In this document: positions 54,380-64,000 of the stretch, piece after piece
Layout: each line of letters begins with the position of its first letter
How positions within the stretch are numbered: the stretch's first letter is position 1
Translations under genes and position numbers: made by a program
Notes under the pieces: model-generated
What the model saw: the letters and a program-made list of their open reading frames with translations, nothing else
The model's database searches: none
What the model was told of the DNA's origin: nothing
Assembly (NCBI GenBank): GCA_947489315.1
Contig: CANLCX010000001.1
Location: 623,501-687,500 of the forward strand
Source of the DNA: an uncultured Sphingomonadaceae bacterium
GTDB lineage: Bacteria > Pseudomonadota > Alphaproteobacteria > Sphingomonadales > Sphingomonadaceae
DNA: 64,000 bases
Reading direction: 5' to 3'

Positions 54380-57300
54380 TCAGCGCCGCGCTAGCATCGG
54401 TGGCACCGGACCAACCCAATCCGACAGATTGGCCTTGTCATTCACGAAATAGGGCTTGCCCTGACTGTTGAGATAGAAGCGCTGCATTTCGCTGCGGCTA
54501 AAGGGCCGGGAGCCCAGCCGCCCGAATACAGCCATCTGACCGCCGGTTTCATCCACCGCCCGGTCACGATCCAATCCTTTGGACAATGCCAAGGCTGGTT
54601 TCGGGGTGCGGGCAAAGGCAATGAGTTCTGGCATCGGTGGTGGCGAGAAGCCGTAGTAATTGGGCTGGCTGTCCGGCGATGTAAGCTGGATGACTTTCAA
54701 TCCGTTACGACCATCAGCAACATAGGCAAATAAGGTGGCGTTAGTCGAACCAACAATCACGTCTTCGGCATCGTTCATTTGGCCGCCAAATGTCTCTTTG
54801 CGGTAAATGACTGGTGCTTCCGGCTTGGTGATGTTGGCAATGACCAGCCCCTCATCCTTGGCCGCAATATAAGCATATGTCCTCGCCAGATAGAGCCGCC
54901 GCGCATTTTTCAACGGGATTGTTCCCGATTCTACAGCAACGGGTTTTTCCATCTCTGTGATATCGAACAGTTTCACGCCCTCGGCATCCGTAACCCAAAT
55001 ATAGCGGAACTGCAGAGCAGAGGCCCGTGCATCCGTCATTGGCATCGTGATAACGTGACGCGGTTTCAGCGGATCGTCGAGGTCGATAACGACTAGACCG
55101 CTTGTCGCCGTGATATAGGCGAAATGCCCGGCCAGTGTGACATGATTGGCCCCGTCCAAGACGCCTTCTGCATTCCAAGTAACGGCCCTTTTGAAGAAGT
55201 TGTTACGGAATTCGCCATCGGCCAGCGTGTTCACATTGACGAGGATCAAGCCTTCTTCGCTGTCGGTGACGACTGCATAGTTATAGATCGGATGGAAAGC
55301 CTGCTCTTCATTAATCTCGCGCAATTCCTTGGTATTGCGCTCGGGAGCAATGGGCTGGTTGGTCGACAATGCCATGCAGGTCGCATTTTTCGTATCGACA
55401 TGGGTATCATGACCCAGCGAAGAGAATGGCGCTTTGACGATACGTTCAGAGAAGCCCTTATTGCCAATTGATGCGACATCATAAGCGCGGAACCCGCCTT
55501 TGCCCTCGGCGACAAACATATATTCGCCGCGCAGTTGCAGACAGCGGACGCTGTCTCCCGTTCCCTGTACGACATTGGCAAATTCTTCGAGTGCCTTGGT
55601 TTCGCCGGACAGATCATCATCCAGTCTCTCACCACGCACCCAGTTGATTAGCTCTCGCCCATTATCTTCGACATGCATCCGCCAATAGTCGGGATAAGCA
55701 TATTTTTGCAGGTAGGAACCGATAACCGCTTGTGGTTCATCCCATTCGGTAACGCGGACGGCTTCAAAGCCCTTGTCCATGCCGACCCAAGCATGCAGGC
55801 CAACAAAGTTTACGAAATTGGTACCCTGCAACAAGAGCTGAGACATGATCGCATTATTGTCATTGGCTTCGCTCAAGTGACAATCAGAACATTGCTTCGT
55901 CTCTGTTTTACGAACCGTGTGCGGGAAATGTGGTGCAAAGGCCTGACTGGAGAAGCCGATCGAAGAAATAGGTGCTTGCTGCACATAGATGCGTTCGCGG
56001 TTGATATTGGTGGATGACAATACCAGTGCGGAGGTGGACCGAACCGGCGCGATGATGCTGCCCTTGGTCGTTTGGTGACGACCGAGTTGGAACATCTGAT
56101 CACGGGCAACTTGCGGATTATAGGTCGCATAGTTTCGCGTCGTGCCGCCCTCATATTTATGGCTTTCTGCCTGCCAGTTGGCCTCGATCGGCAAATGACA
56201 GCCGCCGCAACTGGTCGTCCAGCTCAGGTGGCAGGTGAAGCAGACCATATTCTCATCTTTATGGGCGCGGTCATCCATGGGCACGCCACTACCAAAGGTG
56301 AATTTTCCTGTGTCCGCACCGCTTTTCGACATGAGCTTGGCTCGTGCAGCTTTCAGGTTGAAGTCGGGATGAGAGCGATCAACGGCGTCTTTGACCAAGC
56401 TAACCCGCCAGCTAATTTTAGGGTCAACAATGGAGCGTTGGATCAAAATACGCTTTCCGCCGGGCTCCTGCATCCATTCAAAGCGGCGCTGACCATCAGC
56501 ATTGCGCAACAGGCCGAGGTTATTACCCTTTGGCCGTGCTGCAACATTGGACGTCATGAGTGTCGGATAGGCGTCAGCCGTGCCGTGGCAGTCCTTACAA
56601 TTAATCTCAACGGCGTTGGCCACCTCTCCGTAGATCAGACCATTACCATGACTGTCCTGAGCGAAATGGCAATCGGCGCATTGCATACCAACTTCGGCAT
56701 GAATGCTCATCATATGGACGGACTTGCCGGGGTTGATACCGGGTTCGACAAATTTCGGTTCGTCATCTTTGCGGAATTTCTCGGGATCATCATTGTCGAC
56801 AATATCACCATCCTCGTCGAGCAGATTGCCATCGCGGTCGCGCTTCAGGATCGCCCGGAAATTCCAGCCATGGCCGTGATAGTCGGCAAATTGTGTGTCC
56901 TTGGCTTCGCTGTTGAGATCATAGACATTGCGCAAGAAATCGAGATCGCCCCACAAGCCTTTGGGCGAAGCCGCTTCCGGGTTGCGATCGAGAATTTTGC
57001 GAACTTCTTCGGCATCGGGATATTTCTGTTGCTTATAGGTTTTTTGATATTCCTCGTCACTCATGCCTTCTGGTCTGGGTGTCGTGTTATCCGGTCCGGG
57101 CCACATTAGCGGAGCATCGGATTCATAGTCCCACATCGTGTACCCAAGGAAGCTATTCAGGAAAATATTGGGTTGGTGCATGTGACAGTTCATGCATTGC
57201 GCAGTTGGAATGGCGCGTGTGAAAGCATGCTGAATCGGATGGCCTTTTTCGCGATCCTCTGGCGCTATATCTGCGCTGTGATCATCGCCATGACCGTCAT

Positions 57301-58552
57301 CATGCTTATCTCCATGTCCCTCACCATGATCGCCCTTTTTGCCATGGGCCGCATCATAGGTTCCGAATTTTCCGACGCGTTTTTCACCCTTTTTGAGGTT
57401 GCGGATCGTGGGATCTTTTGTCTGGGTTTGCCCATCGCGGCCATATTTGGCCCAGATCAGGCTATGGCGCGGTTCGCGATCATTGGCATAGACCACGTGA
57501 CAACTGGCACAGCCGGACTGGCGGTAATCGCCGGGCTGATCATTGGTGCCCATGAACCAGGTGAAAGGGTCGTTCAGTCTGGTTTTATGGATGTTCAGGG
57601 CCGGAATGGCGACACGCAAGCCCGTGCCGGGACCGCGGTTGGATTGTTTCAGATCGGGTCGACCGGGTTCTTCCAGCCGTTGGATGATCCCGCCAATATT
57701 GGGCAAACCAATTTCAGGAAACTGTGTGTTGACGTTGCGTCCACCGCGTTCAAACACACGAAAGACATCGCCTGGTGCTATCGTATGCCAAGTAGGCAGG
57801 GGATAAAGAATGGGCAGGGCGCCGCGCTTTTTCTGTTCTTCTGTCACCGTGCCATGCGGGCTACCGGGTGATTTGATCGTCGCGGGCAGCCCTTTGCGTG
57901 TATAGGCTTCGCCAAAGATGTAATTTTTGAACGGTACGATACCATTATTATAAGCGGCTCCGCCCCATAGCATGGCGCCGGTTGCCATCAGCGATCGCTC
58001 AGACGCCTCGATAATTTCCATATGACAAGCGCCACAGGATTCGCGTGCGACACGATAATCAGAAGGATTGACGAAGCGAACAAATTCCGGGGATTCCTTG
58101 TTCAGCAAGGTGTAGCTGCGTTTGGGATTAGCGGACGAAGGCCAATGCCAGGTTTCCGGATATTTGGGGAGGACATGCGCCTTTTTGAGTGCATGCATAT
58201 ATTGCGGGCTTTTTTTGCCCCAATCATTGTCGCCATTGACGCTGGCATCGCCGCCATGACAATCGACACAACCGAGTACCACTGCGGGCGTCTCGTGCAT
58301 GGTTTTCTGGTCGCTGTCAGTATGACAAGAAACACAGCCAGTGCTTTTGGCATTGGCCGCATCCCATGTCTGGTTCTGCGGCGCTGGCGGCGTAAATGTA
58401 TAGTCTATCTTTTGCGGCTTTTCTTTGCCCGCAGCAAAGGCCTGAGACGAACCAAAAACAAGCAATAGAGCAGCAAAAACAATCGCTACCCCGCTCCGCA
58501 TCACGTGCGGTGCACATGATATTGACGACTGAATGGGAGAGGAAAGCTGCAT
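54380..58552 (-). CDS. Secreted decahaem cytochrome with C-terminal LVIVD beta-propeller
   Basis: A 1390-residue exported protein, last gene of the operon. The signal peptide ends near SQAFA (about residue 40). Ten CXXCH haem motifs begin at Cys73, 95, 173, 348, 453, 625, 652, 771, 782 and 888. A His/Asp/Gly-rich stretch lies at about 404-425 (HGKKGDHGEGHGDKHDDGHG). From about residue 1000 to 1310 there are five or six LVIVD-type repeats, for example HFAYITATSGLVVIDLDDP and RYIWVTDAEGVKLFDITE, forming a beta-propeller. The size, signal and neighbours suggest an extracellular or surface electron-transfer protein. It follows the barrel gene by one base. I know of no characterised protein joining these two parts. 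Confidence 0.88.
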   Translation of the reverse strand: MQLSSPIQSSISCAPHVMRSGVAIVFAALLLVFGSSQAFAAGKEKPQKIDYTFTPPAPQNQTWDAANAKSTGCVSCHTDSDQKTMHETPAVVLGCVDCHGGDASVNGDNDWGKKSPQYMHALKKAHVLPKYPETWHWPSSANPKRSYTLLNKESPEFVRFVNPSDYRVARESCGACHMEIIEASERSLMATGAMLWGGAAYNNGIVPFKNYIFGEAYTRKGLPATIKSPGSPHGTVTEEQKKRGALPILYPLPTWHTIAPGDVFRVFERGGRNVNTQFPEIGLPNIGGIIQRLEEPGRPDLKQSNRGPGTGLRVAIPALNIHKTRLNDPFTWFMGTNDQPGDYRQSGCASCHVVYANDREPRHSLIWAKYGRDGQTQTKDPTIRNLKKGEKRVGKFGTYDAAHGKKGDHGEGHGDKHDDGHGDDHSADIAPEDREKGHPIQHAFTRAIPTAQCMNCHMHQPNIFLNSFLGYTMWDYESDAPLMWPGPDNTTPRPEGMSDEEYQKTYKQQKYPDAEEVRKILDRNPEAASPKGLWGDLDFLRNVYDLNSEAKDTQFADYHGHGWNFRAILKRDRDGNLLDEDGDIVDNDDPEKFRKDDEPKFVEPGINPGKSVHMMSIHAEVGMQCADCHFAQDSHGNGLIYGEVANAVEINCKDCHGTADAYPTLMTSNVAARPKGNNLGLLRNADGQRRFEWMQEPGGKRILIQRSIVDPKISWRVSLVKDAVDRSHPDFNLKAARAKLMSKSGADTGKFTFGSGVPMDDRAHKDENMVCFTCHLSWTTSCGGCHLPIEANWQAESHKYEGGTTRNYATYNPQVARDQMFQLGRHQTTKGSIIAPVRSTSALVLSSTNINRERIYVQQAPISSIGFSSQAFAPHFPHTVRKTETKQCSDCHLSEANDNNAIMSQLLLQGTNFVNFVGLHAWVGMDKGFEAVRVTEWDEPQAVIGSYLQKYAYPDYWRMHVEDNGRELINWVRGERLDDDLSGETKALEEFANVVQGTGDSVRCLQLRGEYMFVAEGKGGFRAYDVASIGNKGFSERIVKAPFSSLGHDTHVDTKNATCMALSTNQPIAPERNTKELREINEEQAFHPIYNYAVVTDSEEGLILVNVNTLADGEFRNNFFKRAVTWNAEGVLDGANHVTLAGHFAYITATSGLVVIDLDDPLKPRHVITMPMTDARASALQFRYIWVTDAEGVKLFDITEMEKPVAVESGTIPLKNARRLYLARTYAYIAAKDEGLVIANITKPEAPVIYRKETFGGQMNDAEDVIVGSTNATLFAYVADGRNGLKVIQLTSPDSQPNYYGFSPPPMPELIAFARTPKPALALSKGLDRDRAVDETGGQMAVFGRLGSRPFSRSEMQRFYLNSQGKPYFVNDKANLSDWVGPVPPMLARR

Positions 58553-58553
58553 A

Positions 58554-60740
58554 TCAGAAGGCCAATATTGCGTTAAAGAGAATGGAATAGTGGAAATCGC
58601 GCTTGTCGGTCTGGTCGAACAAATCCCTAAAGCCTTTTCCGGGAAGCAGGGCCGCGCCAGATAGGCGGAAAACGATATTTTGGGTAGCCTTTGGCCGATA
58701 AATAGCGGCGGCGGACAAGTCCCAGCCGATGTCCTTGGGAATCGAGCCTTCTACGCGCAACGCTTCTAGGCTTTCGGTCTTGTGGAACCACAAATGGTTG
58801 GCATTGGCCGATATCCGAAAATCAGGCGTCAGGTCGGCATCAACGCCAACACCCGCCAATATGGTACCAGGATTGTTAAAATTGCTCTGTCCTTGCTCTT
58901 TGGAAGACCGCAGTGAGTTTAATATGCCATTGCGTCCGTTGATACTGATCACGCGTCCGCCGCCAGCAAACGGTATGGTTTGCCGGATCCAATAGCTGGT
59001 ATCAGCACCAGCAAAAATGGGGTTCTCAAAAATGGAGTCAAAACCGGCTTCCGTGTTGTTGTACGGATTGCCATCACCGCTAGCGAACAGACCGGATGCC
59101 CGGAAACGCAAGAAGTCGACATCATAGCTGGCTTCTGCCGCCGCAAAATAGGCAGCAATTTTAGCGGGTTCGCTAGTAAAAATGCTATTGCGGTCTTCGC
59201 CAAAGGCTCCGTAAATCTGACCGGTGACATTAATCCGTCCAATCCGACCATCCACCGCATAGCCGGGATAGACCACGTCATAGGCCCGGCCTCTAAGGTC
59301 ACCAATTAGGGCAGGGCGAACCGGAAAGCCATTATCGTCAATCTCGATATCGTTCTTTTCGCGGTTCATATTATAGGTGACGCTGAACTGGCTGGTCAGG
59401 CCGACAAAGGGCAGATCCTGACGATAGAGATTAGCAAAGAATATGTAGCTTTCGCGCGGCGTTTGAAAAATATCATTCAGGCCGCTATTTGTATCTTTTT
59501 CGAGCTGTACAAACGCCCCGAGATTATATTGCACGCGGTTGTTGTCGCGTGTGCCAAACAGGCGAAAGCCGAGCTGATTATCCTGAAACAGGAAGCCACG
59601 AAAATCAGCCTGCATTGGCTGGATACCGATGCGGAAACTATCAAAGTCATAGCGCGCGGAAGTGTTGCGGATATGATAATCGAAAAATGCCTCCTGCACG
59701 CCCACAAAATAATCGGTGCGGTTGGATGTTTTGGATGGCTCGACAAACAGCACCCGACGCTCTGGCACATTTACATGATTGATTTGCGTCGCCAGGGTTA
59801 GCCGATATTCGACATCAGGCGGCTTATAAGCCGTGGAGCCCTTGATCAGCGCAAAGCCGGTAATGAAAGTCTGCGCATAGACTTCCGATCCCGAGCGGCC
59901 AAATACATCGATGCTACCGGATCGTTCCGTTGTCTGCACGCCTACTGGGATAGGAAAGCTGCGCGGTTCGATGATCGTATCGGAAATCGCGTTGACGACG
60001 AAGAACCAGTCATCGCCTTTCAGAAAGGATGGTTTCTTGTCCTCGGGAATAGGCTTGTCGCCCTTTAGAACATTTTGGCCATAGGGATCGGAAGTTGGGC
60101 GGCAATTGGCCCGCAGACCTCCGAAAACTTTAAAAATGGATTGGTCACTGCCTTTTTGCGGACACAGCGTTTGCAATATCCGCCAGCGGTCAGGGACCGG
60201 AAACTCGTCTGTTGGAAAGGCCTCGGGCGGCGGGGCGCTTATCGCGCCGGGGTTATTCTGGGTCACGCGATCCGGCAGCTCTTTTGGTACGCCAGGACGG
60301 CGGCGGCCATCAATCAGCGCTTCGTCTGCTTCCAGACCGTCAAAATCCATCTCCAGCTGCTCGGGCTCCGCCGCTGCCGGTTCCGTCCTATCGCTTTCCG
60401 CAACCGGTGGTTGGGGCGCGTCGAGGACAGCTTCTTCTTCCGGGTCGGGGCCGCCAACAGCCAGATTATCAGTCCCTACAGCGTCGGTGCTGACAGCCAA
60501 AACAGCATTGCTTGCGACTATCGATCCCGCGCCTGCATTTAGGGCAGCAAGATCAAAATCAGAATTCTCGACGCGCATCCAGTCAAAGTTATCGCCAGCC
60601 AGCAAAGCCGTGAGCGAGCTTTCCATTTCTTCAATGGACAGGCGCTGCAGCTCCATCTGCTCTGCTTGACCAGACATCACCGTCATGATCGGCAAGAAAG
60701 AGGAAGATACAGCGGGCACTTGCTTTACAGTCCCTCGCAA
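58554..60740 (-). CDS. Outer-membrane beta-barrel of the multiheme operon
   Basis: A 728-residue protein with a weak signal-like N-terminus (VPAVSSSFLPIMTVMSGQA, possible cleavage before EQ). About 130 acidic, Pro-rich residues follow, then a long region of alternating beta strands ending RDFHYSILFNAILAF with the terminal phenylalanine typical of barrel proteins. Strand-like pieces include SFRIGIQPMQADFRGFLFQD and QLGFRLFGTRDNNRVQYNLG. It contains no CXXCH. The start overlaps the upstream lipoprotein gene by 16 bases. In the operon it would be the pore that holds or passes cytochromes across the outer membrane, comparable in role to MtrB; sequence homology is not claimed. Confidence 0.78.
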   Translation of the reverse strand: MRGTVKQVPAVSSSFLPIMTVMSGQAEQMELQRLSIEEMESSLTALLAGDNFDWMRVENSDFDLAALNAGAGSIVASNAVLAVSTDAVGTDNLAVGGPDPEEEAVLDAPQPPVAESDRTEPAAAEPEQLEMDFDGLEADEALIDGRRRPGVPKELPDRVTQNNPGAISAPPPEAFPTDEFPVPDRWRILQTLCPQKGSDQSIFKVFGGLRANCRPTSDPYGQNVLKGDKPIPEDKKPSFLKGDDWFFVVNAISDTIIEPRSFPIPVGVQTTERSGSIDVFGRSGSEVYAQTFITGFALIKGSTAYKPPDVEYRLTLATQINHVNVPERRVLFVEPSKTSNRTDYFVGVQEAFFDYHIRNTSARYDFDSFRIGIQPMQADFRGFLFQDNQLGFRLFGTRDNNRVQYNLGAFVQLEKDTNSGLNDIFQTPRESYIFFANLYRQDLPFVGLTSQFSVTYNMNREKNDIEIDDNGFPVRPALIGDLRGRAYDVVYPGYAVDGRIGRINVTGQIYGAFGEDRNSIFTSEPAKIAAYFAAAEASYDVDFLRFRASGLFASGDGNPYNNTEAGFDSIFENPIFAGADTSYWIRQTIPFAGGGRVISINGRNGILNSLRSSKEQGQSNFNNPGTILAGVGVDADLTPDFRISANANHLWFHKTESLEALRVEGSIPKDIGWDLSAAAIYRPKATQNIVFRLSGAALLPGKGFRDLFDQTDKRDFHYSILFNAILAF

Positions 60741-62719
60741 ACATTCTGGTCGTCCGTGTCGAGAAACGGCGCAAATGGGCAGTTCACATAGCGCAAACGT
60801 ACCTGTGCATCCCCGAGATCAACCACCACATTATCGGCGCGAATGGCCTTTGGTGCGTTACCGATGCTGCCAACTCGCAGTCCTGCGTTGTGCAAGCCAA
60901 GGAAACTGATCATGTCATCCTGATCAATACCATCGCCCGATACGCCAAGGCCGCCAATTAGCTGGTCCCCACGATAGATCGGGACACTACCTGGGAAAAT
61001 CTGGATGCCATTTTCAAGCCGGTTCTGTCCCGCTACTGCATCTGGTGTATTGGTGCAGCGCATGGGTGTATCCATCGCTGATGCTCCGGTTACAAAGGCG
61101 AGATGCTGTCCCAGATTAGGGAAGATCAAAGCCGCCTGAAGTCCGGTAGCCAGTGGGTTAAAATCCTCAATCGGGCGCGACAAAGGTCCGGGAGGACGTC
61201 CTAGTTCTCCATCTGGAAAATAGGGCCGAGAGAGATTGCCGCCGGAGCGATCAGCAAAAGCAACCGTTCCTGTTAACGCATTGGGGTCGTTTAGGAATGT
61301 CCGGACGCGCTGAACGAAGGCGGCAACATCGGTGTCGGGATTGCCGAGCAAATCGGATGCCGCAACGCTGTTGGAAAAGAAGGATGCTGTCCGGGCTTTT
61401 TGTAGTGAAACATCGGTTCCAAAAATCGGTGCATCGGGCGACCGAACAATGCCTAGTATTTCGCCATGGGTATCGACGACCGAAATGGAGACCTGTGCAC
61501 GGCTGTCCAGTGGTTGCCGGATTTGCGCGCGGGCGCGGCTCATGATGATGAACGCTTCTTCCAAGATGGCCCGGGTTTCGGTTGCTGTTAACGGGGTGGC
61601 GACATCCGCTCCATCCGTTGCTGCCCGGATTGGGAAGCGGTTCGCGCCAGTGCCGTCGGACAGCACAAAGGCATCGCGGTTTTTGAATTCCGCAGCGGTT
61701 GAAGCCCGGATGCCTGAGTTTTCAGTACCATAAGCTGAACCGGCGATGATTGTGGCGGTGGAATAGCCGGTCACCGCAATCAAATTGCCGGAGGTGACGT
61801 TAATGGCTGCGAAATTATTTTGGAGCGGGGACAGATCGTTCACGACCATATCGCTGAACCGCAACGAGGTGCCATCAACCGAAATGCGGTTAGCCGTGAT
61901 CGCAGCGGACGGCGCAAATCCCTGAATTCCCGCTAGAGCGATGGCTTCTTCATCGTCGACATCAACATCGAGAATATTGGAATCGAAGCCATAATCCCCG
62001 TCACCCATGACACCGATTGCACCAACGACAACGCCGTTTTTGTAAAGCGGCAATCCACCGGGGTCGGCAGACAGACCAAGAGGAGACCGTTTAGGACCTA
62101 TCAGGGCAGCAGCGCCGGCATTACCGAACCGCTGATTGAGATCAGAGCAAGGTAGCTGACTGAACTGAACTCCAAATAGCGGACCGCTTTCCAAACCTGC
62201 CGCGGTTGGCGCAGGAGGGAAATGTTCCTGCACGATCTGACTGGCGGTACGAGATGAAAAAGCGTTGCCTGAACTCGACAGATAGGCGCCGGTCACGGCT
62301 TTGGCGATGGCTCCTGCCGCTGCCGGTACAACCACGCCCTGTACGTCTATACCGGGATTGTTGATGGTTCCCATCGCGGTTCGCGCGCTGGTGGTGGCAG
62401 TAGCGCGCGCGCCGTTCATTTCAAAAACAGCAAGCACGTTACCAACGCGGTCAGTCACAGCAATAACGGAGGGCAAATTGCGCGCAGTTGCTTCGCCGAC
62501 CGCTTGGGCAATAATCGTCTGTACGTCCGTTACACTGAGCGATTCTTGCGCGGGAGGCGTAAAGGCACCGCCATTGCCGTCTACCGGTGATGGTGAAGGC
62601 GTTGGAGCAGGCGAGGGTGACGGTGTGCCGCCAAAATCATTACTGTCTCCGCCGCCGCCACAAGACGTCAGAAGCAAGGCAGCTGCTGAAACCGCAGCGG
62701 TAAAACGGGGAAGACGCAT
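60725..62719 (-). CDS. Lipoprotein with two HbpS/GlcG-type domains
   Basis: A 664-residue predicted lipoprotein: signal AAVSAAALLLTSCGGGGD with lipobox cysteine 20, then a Pro/Ser linker (SPSPAPTPSPSP). Two repeated HbpS/GlcG-like domains follow. The first runs from about 60 to 285 (VTDVQTIIAQAVGEATARNL, GGLPLYKNGVVVGAIGVMGD). The second runs from about 375 to 640 (LTATETRAILEEAFIIMSRA, GSVPIYRGDQLIGGLGVSGD). The family includes haem-binding HbpS and GlcG. Duplication in one lipoprotein is unusual. It shares one base with the end of the upstream cytochrome gene. It may handle haem for, or sense redox state of, the conduit. Confidence 0.82.
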   Translation of the reverse strand: MRLPRFTAAVSAAALLLTSCGGGGDSNDFGGTPSPSPAPTPSPSPVDGNGGAFTPPAQESLSVTDVQTIIAQAVGEATARNLPSVIAVTDRVGNVLAVFEMNGARATATTSARTAMGTINNPGIDVQGVVVPAAAGAIAKAVTGAYLSSSGNAFSSRTASQIVQEHFPPAPTAAGLESGPLFGVQFSQLPCSDLNQRFGNAGAAALIGPKRSPLGLSADPGGLPLYKNGVVVGAIGVMGDGDYGFDSNILDVDVDDEEAIALAGIQGFAPSAAITANRISVDGTSLRFSDMVVNDLSPLQNNFAAINVTSGNLIAVTGYSTATIIAGSAYGTENSGIRASTAAEFKNRDAFVLSDGTGANRFPIRAATDGADVATPLTATETRAILEEAFIIMSRARAQIRQPLDSRAQVSISVVDTHGEILGIVRSPDAPIFGTDVSLQKARTASFFSNSVAASDLLGNPDTDVAAFVQRVRTFLNDPNALTGTVAFADRSGGNLSRPYFPDGELGRPPGPLSRPIEDFNPLATGLQAALIFPNLGQHLAFVTGASAMDTPMRCTNTPDAVAGQNRLENGIQIFPGSVPIYRGDQLIGGLGVSGDGIDQDDMISFLGLHNAGLRVGSIGNAPKAIRADNVVVDLGDAQVRLRYVNCPFAPFLDTDDQNVCEGL

Positions 62720-64000
62720 TATCGTAAGGCCCTTATGGTTCTGACCGCACTGCCAAGTGCACGGCGGAATTGCAGGGGCTTGTAGCTATTTGGTTCGTCC
62801 ACCGCTTTATAAGCGACGTTGATCTGGCCGCGCAGGCTGGCAGCAGCAGCTTCGCTAACCTGGCCGCTGTTGACCAAGCCGTTGAGCAAAGTATCAATCG
62901 CCATGACGGCCTGAACGCTGCCTTCATAATCGGTGAAGCGAGGGGAGATGGCTTGTCCGGCGATTGTCTCCATGATCTGGAAAGTTTGATCACGGCCAAA
63001 GCTGGCGCGGGAGAAACGATCCGCCAGGGTCGTCGCGGTTTGGCGCAAGCGCGCTGCGGCCTGAACCGCTGGTCCGCGGCCTTGTCCCATCGCAGCGTGG
63101 AATGCCTTGGACCGGGCATTGAACTGACCGGCCAGATCAGGTGCAGCCACTTTAATGGCGGCGCTCAGCATGATCATATTTTCGTCATTATAAGGCGGCA
63201 TGCCTTCCGGGATCGGACGCCCGGGATTATTGATGGATGTGGGCCTTGCAGAGGCTTCATCATAGATCTGGCGATGACAGCTATGGCAATCATAGAAATA
63301 GAATTCAGGGAACAAGCCTTCCTGCGCCAAGGCTGGTTTCGAGAAGAGATTGAGGGAACGTTCCAGCGCCATGGATTGACCGACAGCCCAGAAACGGACG
63401 CCGTTGGTCTTGCCCTTGCGGCGAACATAATCGATGTCTTCATCATGATGTTGTTGCAGCGTTGAGAATAGATCGAGCTCAAAGGAAATCCGGGGATGCC
63501 CGGCAGCCATGATCCGATGATCAACAAATTGGCCTTTTTTCGCGCTGCCAAAATGGCAATCGAGACAAGTGCTGGCCCGCGTTTTCGGATTGTCGAGCGG
63601 CGCCAGGCCGAGCGAAACATTCTTCGCATGGTTTGCGCCAACAGCATAATGGGCAGAGAGCCAACCGGAGGATGCGCCGTGACAGGCTTCACAGCCTACG
63701 CCATCGCTGACTTGGAAACGGGGGCCCTTCTTCGCTGCTGGCGTGCTGTGACAGCCCAGGCATTGATCGGAAGACGCAGCATCTTTGATGCCAAGTCGTT
63801 TCGCTATCGCGATACTGCGGGGTTCACGAAGCACGCGGAAAGCGCGGCTATGAGCACCACCGGGTGTCGATTCTTCCTGCCAACGCATGAGTTCATCTTG
63901 GCGAACAACTTCACCATCAGCTTCTTGCCGCCCGTGGCAAGTGGTTCCACCGCAGCTTGCAACACCCATATGCGTTCCGCTTGCCAAATCTTGTGCCGCT
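62719..64000 (-). CDS. Multiheme cytochrome, c554-like (5' end beyond window)
   Basis: At least 427 residues; the frame runs off the right edge at 64000, probably within the signal peptide (AAQD-LASG). Haem motifs visible: an unusual CGGTTCH (C-x4-C-H) near the start, then CLGCH, CEACH, CLDCH and CHSCH. The pattern and spacing resemble the cytochrome c554 family. A helical C-terminal half of about 180 residues lacks motifs. First visible gene of the operon, overlapping the lipoprotein gene by one base. Likely periplasmic electron carrier feeding the outer-membrane complex. Confidence 0.85.
   Translation of the reverse strand, partial: AAQDLASGTHMGVASCGGTTCHGRQEADGEVVRQDELMRWQEESTPGGAHSRAFRVLREPRSIAIAKRLGIKDAASSDQCLGCHSTPAAKKGPRFQVSDGVGCEACHGASSGWLSAHYAVGANHAKNVSLGLAPLDNPKTRASTCLDCHFGSAKKGQFVDHRIMAAGHPRISFELDLFSTLQQHHDEDIDYVRRKGKTNGVRFWAVGQSMALERSLNLFSKPALAQEGLFPEFYFYDCHSCHRQIYDEASARPTSINNPGRPIPEGMPPYNDENMIMLSAAIKVAAPDLAGQFNARSKAFHAAMGQGRGPAVQAAARLRQTATTLADRFSRASFGRDQTFQIMETIAGQAISPRFTDYEGSVQAVMAIDTLLNGLVNSGQVSEAAAASLRGQINVAYKAVDEPNSYKPLQFRRALGSAVRTIRALR

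Follow-up and report, generated by a model that had tools for sequence, protein, structure and literature searches.

Introduction

PCC4, a type of porin-cytochrome cluster (PCC), was predicted in 2017, reportedly by He et al. In the sections of that work available to us (PMC5566968), PCC4 combines a porin with multihaem cytochromes of 4, 5 and 10 haems and with an inner-membrane protein (IMP) of five transmembrane (TM) segments, which carries WX3HX13H motifs on TM3 and TM5 and an SGXXG motif on TM4. In its subgroup II the gene for an Fe-S protein (pfam13247) lies upstream of the IMP gene. The same sections state that two HX13H motifs on TM3 and TM5 bind two b haems in ferric reductases. Here we consider a stretch of 64,000 nucleotides from an uncultured Sphingomonadaceae bacterium (the window, G000:C1:623501-687500 of a 3.88 Mb genome), on whose minus strand four tightly packed open reading frames, g1, g2, g3 and g4, form one operon-like block. 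We conclude that these genes are probably the outer-membrane half of an eight-gene conduit that would carry electrons from the cytoplasm to the cell surface.

For PCC3 and PCC4 in connection with porin and multiheme, PMC5566968 was the only paper found in the open literature, and no experimental test of PCC4 was found in the literature consulted, which included the available sections of this paper. No paper on the present cluster was found either, in a search that left subscription papers, preprints and supplements outside its scope and hence does not establish absence from print. The main texts of PMC5566968, PMC8805035 and PMC11475568 contain no word starting with 'Sphingo'.

Co-occurrence of the outer and inner operons

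The neighbourhoods of the outer operon repeatedly hold a second ten-haem protein, imC, which has an FHA-like N-terminus and belongs to an inner operon, imF-imB-imC-imP. In the window's genome this operon lies outside the window on the plus strand (L060:7598-13689, corresponding to G000:C1:541597-547688), with imC at C1:544944, 133 kb from g4. Far apart as the two operons lie here, they are coupled across the family. Among 298 genomes of the family, g4 was found together with a strong imC match in 118, g4 only in one (G022, 67% complete) and strong imC only in none; the 179 genomes with neither were obtained by subtraction, since the g4 and imC scans, with coinciding labels for the same 298 genomes, leave most non-matching ones unlisted. 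The latter number takes in seven imC matches too weak to count as present (E 9.4e-12 to 6.9e-4). One of them, a 43-residue fragment of 56% identity in a genome that is 70% complete (G176), may be genuine and would then be an imC that occurs without g4. The Fisher test applied to this table takes no account of the relatedness of the genomes. At least five genera (genus labels g15, g29, g35, g79 and g80) have members with both genes as well as a member with neither, and the pattern is therefore not the product of one inheritance alone. In a sample of 398 genomes of the phylum, g3 was present in 12, all of which also carried imC (E 1e-20 or better) and imB. The reading of g1-g4 as part of an electron conduit is supported because of this near-perfect co-occurrence with an operon for electron entry at the inner membrane. 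Gene content, conserved redox motifs, synteny and co-occurrence are direct observations.

The physical linkage of the two halves varies. Counts for named loci rest on a scan of named-species genomes with two peptide patterns, which gave at least 594 g4 relatives, the best 80 of which were retained. Where at least 9 kb were available downstream of g4, all four im genes stood beside the outer operon in 45 of 67 loci and none of them in 22. For the six genomes of the window's genus, the halves are distant or on different contigs in G000, G243, G153, G278 and G089, and on different contigs in G203. In a locus from another class (L047) seven of the eight genes lie together, imP not being found. imP is present in the family loci and in L044; it was not found in the stretches L045, L046 and L047 from outside the family, two of which are cut, and for such loci the conduit is counted as seven genes. 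The sequence-only reading had noticed neither this partner operon nor the start of g1 beyond the window. The four genes are real, but they appear to make up half of an eight-gene set.

The inner operon and the proposed direction of electron flow

The imF protein (816 residues) combines a Pyr_redox domain, two cyclic nucleotide monophosphate (cNMP)-binding domains and Fer4 domains (PF13247, 4.7e-11), and its gene directly precedes imB. In the alignments used for motif conservation in g1 and the im proteins, matches that contained stops or had less than 85% cover were excluded. imF has 16 Cys that are invariant in 52 rows, a number that would be enough for four [4Fe-4S] clusters. It further carries two nucleotide-binding glycine motifs and two phosphate-binding cassettes: the first cNMP cassette keeps G-E and R in 52/52 rows, and the second keeps G, E and R in 52, 51 and 52 of 52 rows, respectively. 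imB (293 residues) has five hydrophobic segments, with W-x3-H-x13-H on the third and fifth and SGxxG on the fourth. W94, H98, H112, S135, G136, G139, W267, H271 and H285 are invariant in 8 rows, and the four haem His are kept in all of 55 rows. imC (622 residues) has one TM segment, ten CxxCH motifs and 20 Cys that are invariant in 52 rows. For the imC of the window's genome Pfam gave no FHA match at E 0.001; we call the protein FHA-like because relatives match the family and a G-R pair is kept in 52/52 rows. imP is a calcineurin-like phosphoesterase, the best NCBIfam matches of which are cyclic-nucleotide phosphodiesterases, below their cut-offs.

From these parts we infer the order of the carriers, the outward direction of flow and the crossing of the outer membrane. 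Electrons from NAD(P)H would enter the FAD and the four [4Fe-4S] clusters of the cytoplasmic imF, pass to the two b haems of the five-helix imB in the inner membrane and then to the decahaem protein imC, which would be anchored there. imC would hand them to the periplasmic, c554-type g1, and g1 to an outer-membrane unit of the barrel g3 with the lipoprotein g2 and the decahaem-propeller protein g4, from which they would reach an extracellular acceptor. As predicted from the motifs, the set of cofactors would be continuous from NAD(P)H to the outer membrane.

The same carriers could also run inward, taking electrons from an extracellular donor, e.g. Mn(II) or Fe(II), and delivering them to the membrane or to NAD(P)+. 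The fusion of a pyridine-nucleotide flavoprotein domain to the input subunit imF suits NAD(P)H as donor instead, and the reduction of NAD+ by Mn or Fe is uphill and requires extra energy. Inward flow is nonetheless how PCC4 is drawn in the available sections of PMC5566968, where an extracellular donor feeds the quinone pool, with the same direction for PCC3; an Erythrobacter sp. with a PCC3 cluster is named there as Mn(II) oxidiser. Weighing both sides we regard inward flow as unlikely and keep to an outward conduit.

imF and imB share one open frame in two of the three genomes of the phylum sample that carry imC and imB without g3 (see below). At L166:4850-8206 and L167:3052-6423 an imC-like gene comes after a fused imF-imB frame of ~1120 codons, and relatives of g1, g2, g3 or g4 were not found in the surrounding sequence analysed. 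In the window's genome imF is flanked by a CcmH-like TPR gene of the cytochrome-maturation kind on the minus strand (L060:6326-7321), in agreement with the proposed chain.

The outer operon and the end of the chain

The sequence-only reading had described four packed genes leading from a five-motif cytochrome to a ten-haem cytochrome, which coordinates, motifs and Pfam matches bear out; the barrel remains a prediction. All four lie on the minus strand. g1 (62719..64000) is incomplete inside the window, since it starts 125 bases past the window end (L002:626; G000:C1:687625). It encodes 468 residues with a hydrophobic signal or anchor segment at the N-terminus and five haem motifs, namely four CxxCH and one CX4CH. 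It belongs to the Pfam family Cytochrome_C554, its ten haem Cys are invariant in 70 aligned rows, and the sole match in a sequence search of the PDB was cytochrome c554 (E 0.006).

A one-base overlap (TAATG) joins g1 to g2 (60725-62719; 664 residues), a lipoprotein with the lipobox LLTSC and a duplicated HbpS/GlcG-like domain (PF03928, 5.9e-24, 4 stretches in Pfam). A loose lipobox pattern was found in g2 of 63 of 67 loci. The HbpS-like family is named for haem degradation, which would fit a role in haem or iron acquisition: haem would be bound by the lipoprotein and imported by the barrel, with the cytochromes acting on ferric iron as reductants. However, neither g3 nor its homologues matched a TonB-dependent-receptor or plug domain, five- and ten-haem cytochromes themselves cost iron, and the linked operon is a redox chain, so that we consider this explanation very improbable.

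g3 (58554-60740) comprises 728 residues when read from the TTG at 60740, which overlaps g2 by 16 bases; a GTG at 60719 leaves a gap of 5 bases and is the more likely start because it better fits the starts of homologues in the alignment. The g3 alignment covered 70 of the 80 loci (9 had no full-length match, and L063 has a stop in frame). g3 had no match in Pfam, NCBIfam or the PDB, the latter tried with the single sequence and with a profile. It is a predicted outer-membrane beta-barrel: its C-terminal residue is aromatic, and a crude strand scan gave 21 candidate amphipathic strands.

One base separates g3 from g4 (54380-58552), which encodes 1390 residues with an N-terminal signal sequence. 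Its ten-haem region spans residues 73-892 (55877..58336) and holds 10 CxxCH motifs, and a C-terminal LVIVD propeller follows at approximately 54593..55555 (PF08309, 4.4e-10, 3 stretches); Pfam likewise gave multihaem families beside the LVIVD repeats. The ten motifs are invariant in 11 aligned rows, and their count is ten in all 80 retained loci, one of which has an in-frame stop; 73 of these loci entered the g4 alignment. No PDB match to g4 was found with single-sequence or profile searches. The loose lipobox pattern occurs in g4 of only 6 of 78 loci.

Several observations weigh against a conduit that reaches the cell surface. Lacking a conserved lipobox, g4 may stay periplasmic. A loose lipobox pattern in g1 of 46 of 66 loci makes the placement of this protein less sure. 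Homologues of g3 show weak matches to Alginate_exp (1/16 and 2/71), a narrower type of porin, and the comparison of g3 with MtrB by hhalign, using shallow profiles, gave a probability of 0.7%. Physiological data on this cluster were not found in the open literature. Finally, imC and imB occur without g3 in three of the 15 imC-bearing genomes of the phylum sample (G298, G330 and G446); in these samples the outer unit is thus accompanied by the inner unit, but not always the reverse.

Part of this evidence favours a chain that ends in the periplasm, with g4 as a periplasmic reductase, g3 as a nutrient porin that admits the substrate and g2 as an accessory binding protein. The missing lipobox of g4 and the Alginate_exp matches would agree with such an arrangement, as would the c554 type of g1, known members of which are periplasmic. 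On the other side, g4 is almost always coupled to a dedicated operon for electron entry at the inner membrane, ten haems plus a propeller are large for a periplasmic reductase, and no catalytic family was found in g4 by Pfam or NCBIfam searches. We judge a periplasmic end to be quite improbable and prefer the conduit across the outer membrane.

Conservation and distribution

The sequence-only reading had proposed to look for a conserved four-gene block outside the mtr and pio loci, and such a block exists. Of the named loci, 66 extend 6 kb or more upstream of g4, and 65 of these keep the order g1-g2-g3-g4; in the sole exception (L125) other genes stand in place of g1 and g2 before g3-g4. A further 15 neighbourhoods, 11 from the family and 4 from outside, showed this order in 13 cases, in one of which (L055) g1 is split over two frames. 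In L047, outside the class, the order is g2-g3-g4-g1; L046 meets a contig edge after g3. In L045 a glutamate-dehydrogenase-like gene stands between g1 and g2.

Within the family g4 is present in 119 of 298 genomes and in 42 of 96 genera. Of the g3-bearing genomes of the phylum sample four lie outside the family (two in other families of the same class, two in other classes), at 53-67% identity. Among the matches listed from named records, the nearest g4 belongs to an uncultured Sphingomonadaceae bacterium (98%) and the nearest from a genus-named record to Sphingorhabdus sp. EL138 (92%). The genera of matching records include Erythrobacter, Novosphingobium, Sphingobium and Sphingopyxis. The haem part of g4 also matched 13 plasmid records, 12 from Sphingobium and 1 from Sphingopyxis. 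On pMSHV of Sphingobium herbicidovorans (L213, NZ_CP020539.1) all eight genes lie within 16.3 kb, annotated as hypothetical or with general domain names. Since this plasmid is typed as conjugative, the system may move between sphingomonads.

Upstream neighbourhood and possible cyclic-nucleotide control

In the window's genome four other genes adjoin g1 upstream; past these lie, on the same strand, a CHASE2-class III cyclase, a small gene that has no Pfam match, a ShlB/FhaC transporter and a 2781-residue exoprotein (L002:6599-19707). Neighbours were counted in those named loci that extend 3.5 kb or more upstream of g1, 61 in number. In 16 of them g1 is immediately preceded, on its own strand, by relatives of the cyclase and of the small gene; these 16 could represent one inherited arrangement. 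In 8/61 the upstream stretch encodes a protein related to the exoprotein or to the long protein that precedes g1 on pMSHV. An aldehyde dehydrogenase, mostly accompanied by an acetolactate-synthase-like gene, occurs upstream in 21/61 (the dehydrogenase alone being required for the count); we do not count it as part of the system, as it probably reflects inheritance of the neighbourhood. None of the tested neighbours was found upstream of g1 in 17/61.

The cNMP-binding domains of imF, the phosphodiesterase-like imP next to it and, in some loci, an adjoining CHASE2 cyclase suggest that a cyclic nucleotide may gate electron entry, and the FHA-like domain of imC might take part in this switching. 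In its most specific form, the proposal is that a cyclic nucleotide, made by the linked CHASE2 cyclase and removed by imP, would bind imF and directly switch NAD(P)H-driven electron export in aerobic sphingomonads, through a barrel-cytochrome unit unrelated to MtrB. We infer this joint claim tentatively and hold it to be rather doubtful as a whole, slightly more so since the stretches analysed from three of the four loci outside the family yielded no imP.

If the conduit exists as proposed, many Sphingomonadaceae, a family little studied for this, carry a complete electron route from the cytoplasm to the surface. The input enzyme imF bears its own cyclic-nucleotide sensors, so that control of extracellular electron transfer at the level of an enzyme could be tested in culturable strains. 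The predicted PCC4 type would moreover gain a widespread relative in culturable genera.

Comparison with known systems

With MtrCAB, MtoAB and PioAB the outer operon shares the combination of a periplasmic multihaem protein, an outer-membrane barrel and a second multihaem protein. Judged by sequence, however, it falls outside MtrCAB with respect to barrel, plug and surface lipoprotein. The MtrB/PioB family (PF11854) matched neither g3 nor its homologues, and the window's genome has no match over the cut-off; together with the hhalign result given above for shallow profiles, this led us to reject a kinship of g3 with MtrB/PioB. In contrast to the decahaem plug of the MtrA/DmsE type, g1 has five haem motifs, and it scored 19.4 bits against a DmsE-family cut-off of 192.2. 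An MtrA-like kinship of g4 is unsupported as well, the one such match covering 34 columns and only a haem motif. As to the surface decahaem lipoprotein of MtrCAB, g4 has ten haems but lacks a conserved lipobox. Electron entry would take place via a di-haem b protein, as opposed to the tetrahaem CymA described for Shewanella in the available part of PMC13322032. Similarity to the ExtM selenite/tellurite operon (68 bits versus a cut-off of 800) was put down to what multihaem proteins have in common, and a link with that operon was rejected.

With the TM domain of ferric reductases and NOX, imB shares the two HX13H motifs on TM3 and TM5, the two b haems and the supply of electrons from a flavin (as described in the sections of PMC5566968 at hand). 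In our case multihaem c cytochromes and an outer-membrane unit would receive the electrons, and the flavin domain, which comes with Fe-S clusters, belongs to the pyridine-nucleotide-disulphide type. PCC3, according to the same sections, joins an inner-membrane protein of the same motif type to a porin and multihaem proteins, but its cytochromes have medians of 34 and 21 haems as compared to at most ten here. At L206:8327-13117 a distant imB-type protein adjoins a frame with 24 CxxCH motifs, which resembles the described PCC3 type.

The closest likeness is with PCC4. imB has the five TM segments, the double WX3HX13H motif and the SGXXG motif of the PCC4 IMP, the Fe-S protein imF (PF13247) directly precedes it as in subgroup II, and a decahaem protein, a four-haem cytochrome and a porin, in our case the predicted barrel g3, occur in both. 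The haem motifs differ, with 4 CxxCH (plus one CX4CH), 10 and 10 here against the published 4, 5 and 10, and the available sections of PMC5566968 mention no HbpS lipoprotein, propeller or FHA domain for PCC4. A profile search with imB gave distant loci that fit the PCC4 description in part. The fullest, L201, which we assign to PCC4 by its match to the published description and not by comparison of sequences, encodes a five-haem protein, a presumed porin, a NAD/FAD/2Fe-2S protein, a four-CxxCH c554-type cytochrome, a cNMP/Fe-S protein, a b protein and a ten-haem protein. Its Fe-S protein likewise carries cNMP-binding domains, its b protein aligns with imB at an hhalign probability of 98.3%, and its four-CxxCH cytochrome matches the g1 profile with E 4.7e-14. 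The FAD/NAD part, by contrast, is separate there and fused to imF here. The presumed porin of L201, named by position only and without Pfam family, gave 0.5% with g3 in a comparison of single sequences that has little power for barrels; its pentahaem protein did not match g4 (23%, single sequences). The sequence-only reading had called the conduit possibly new. The conduit reading is supported by the co-occurrence of the two operons, whereas the inner half and g1 are related to what fits the predicted PCC4 type. The inner core and g1 thus appear to belong with PCC4; it is by its outer unit, FHA domain and flavin fusion that the present system would stand apart.

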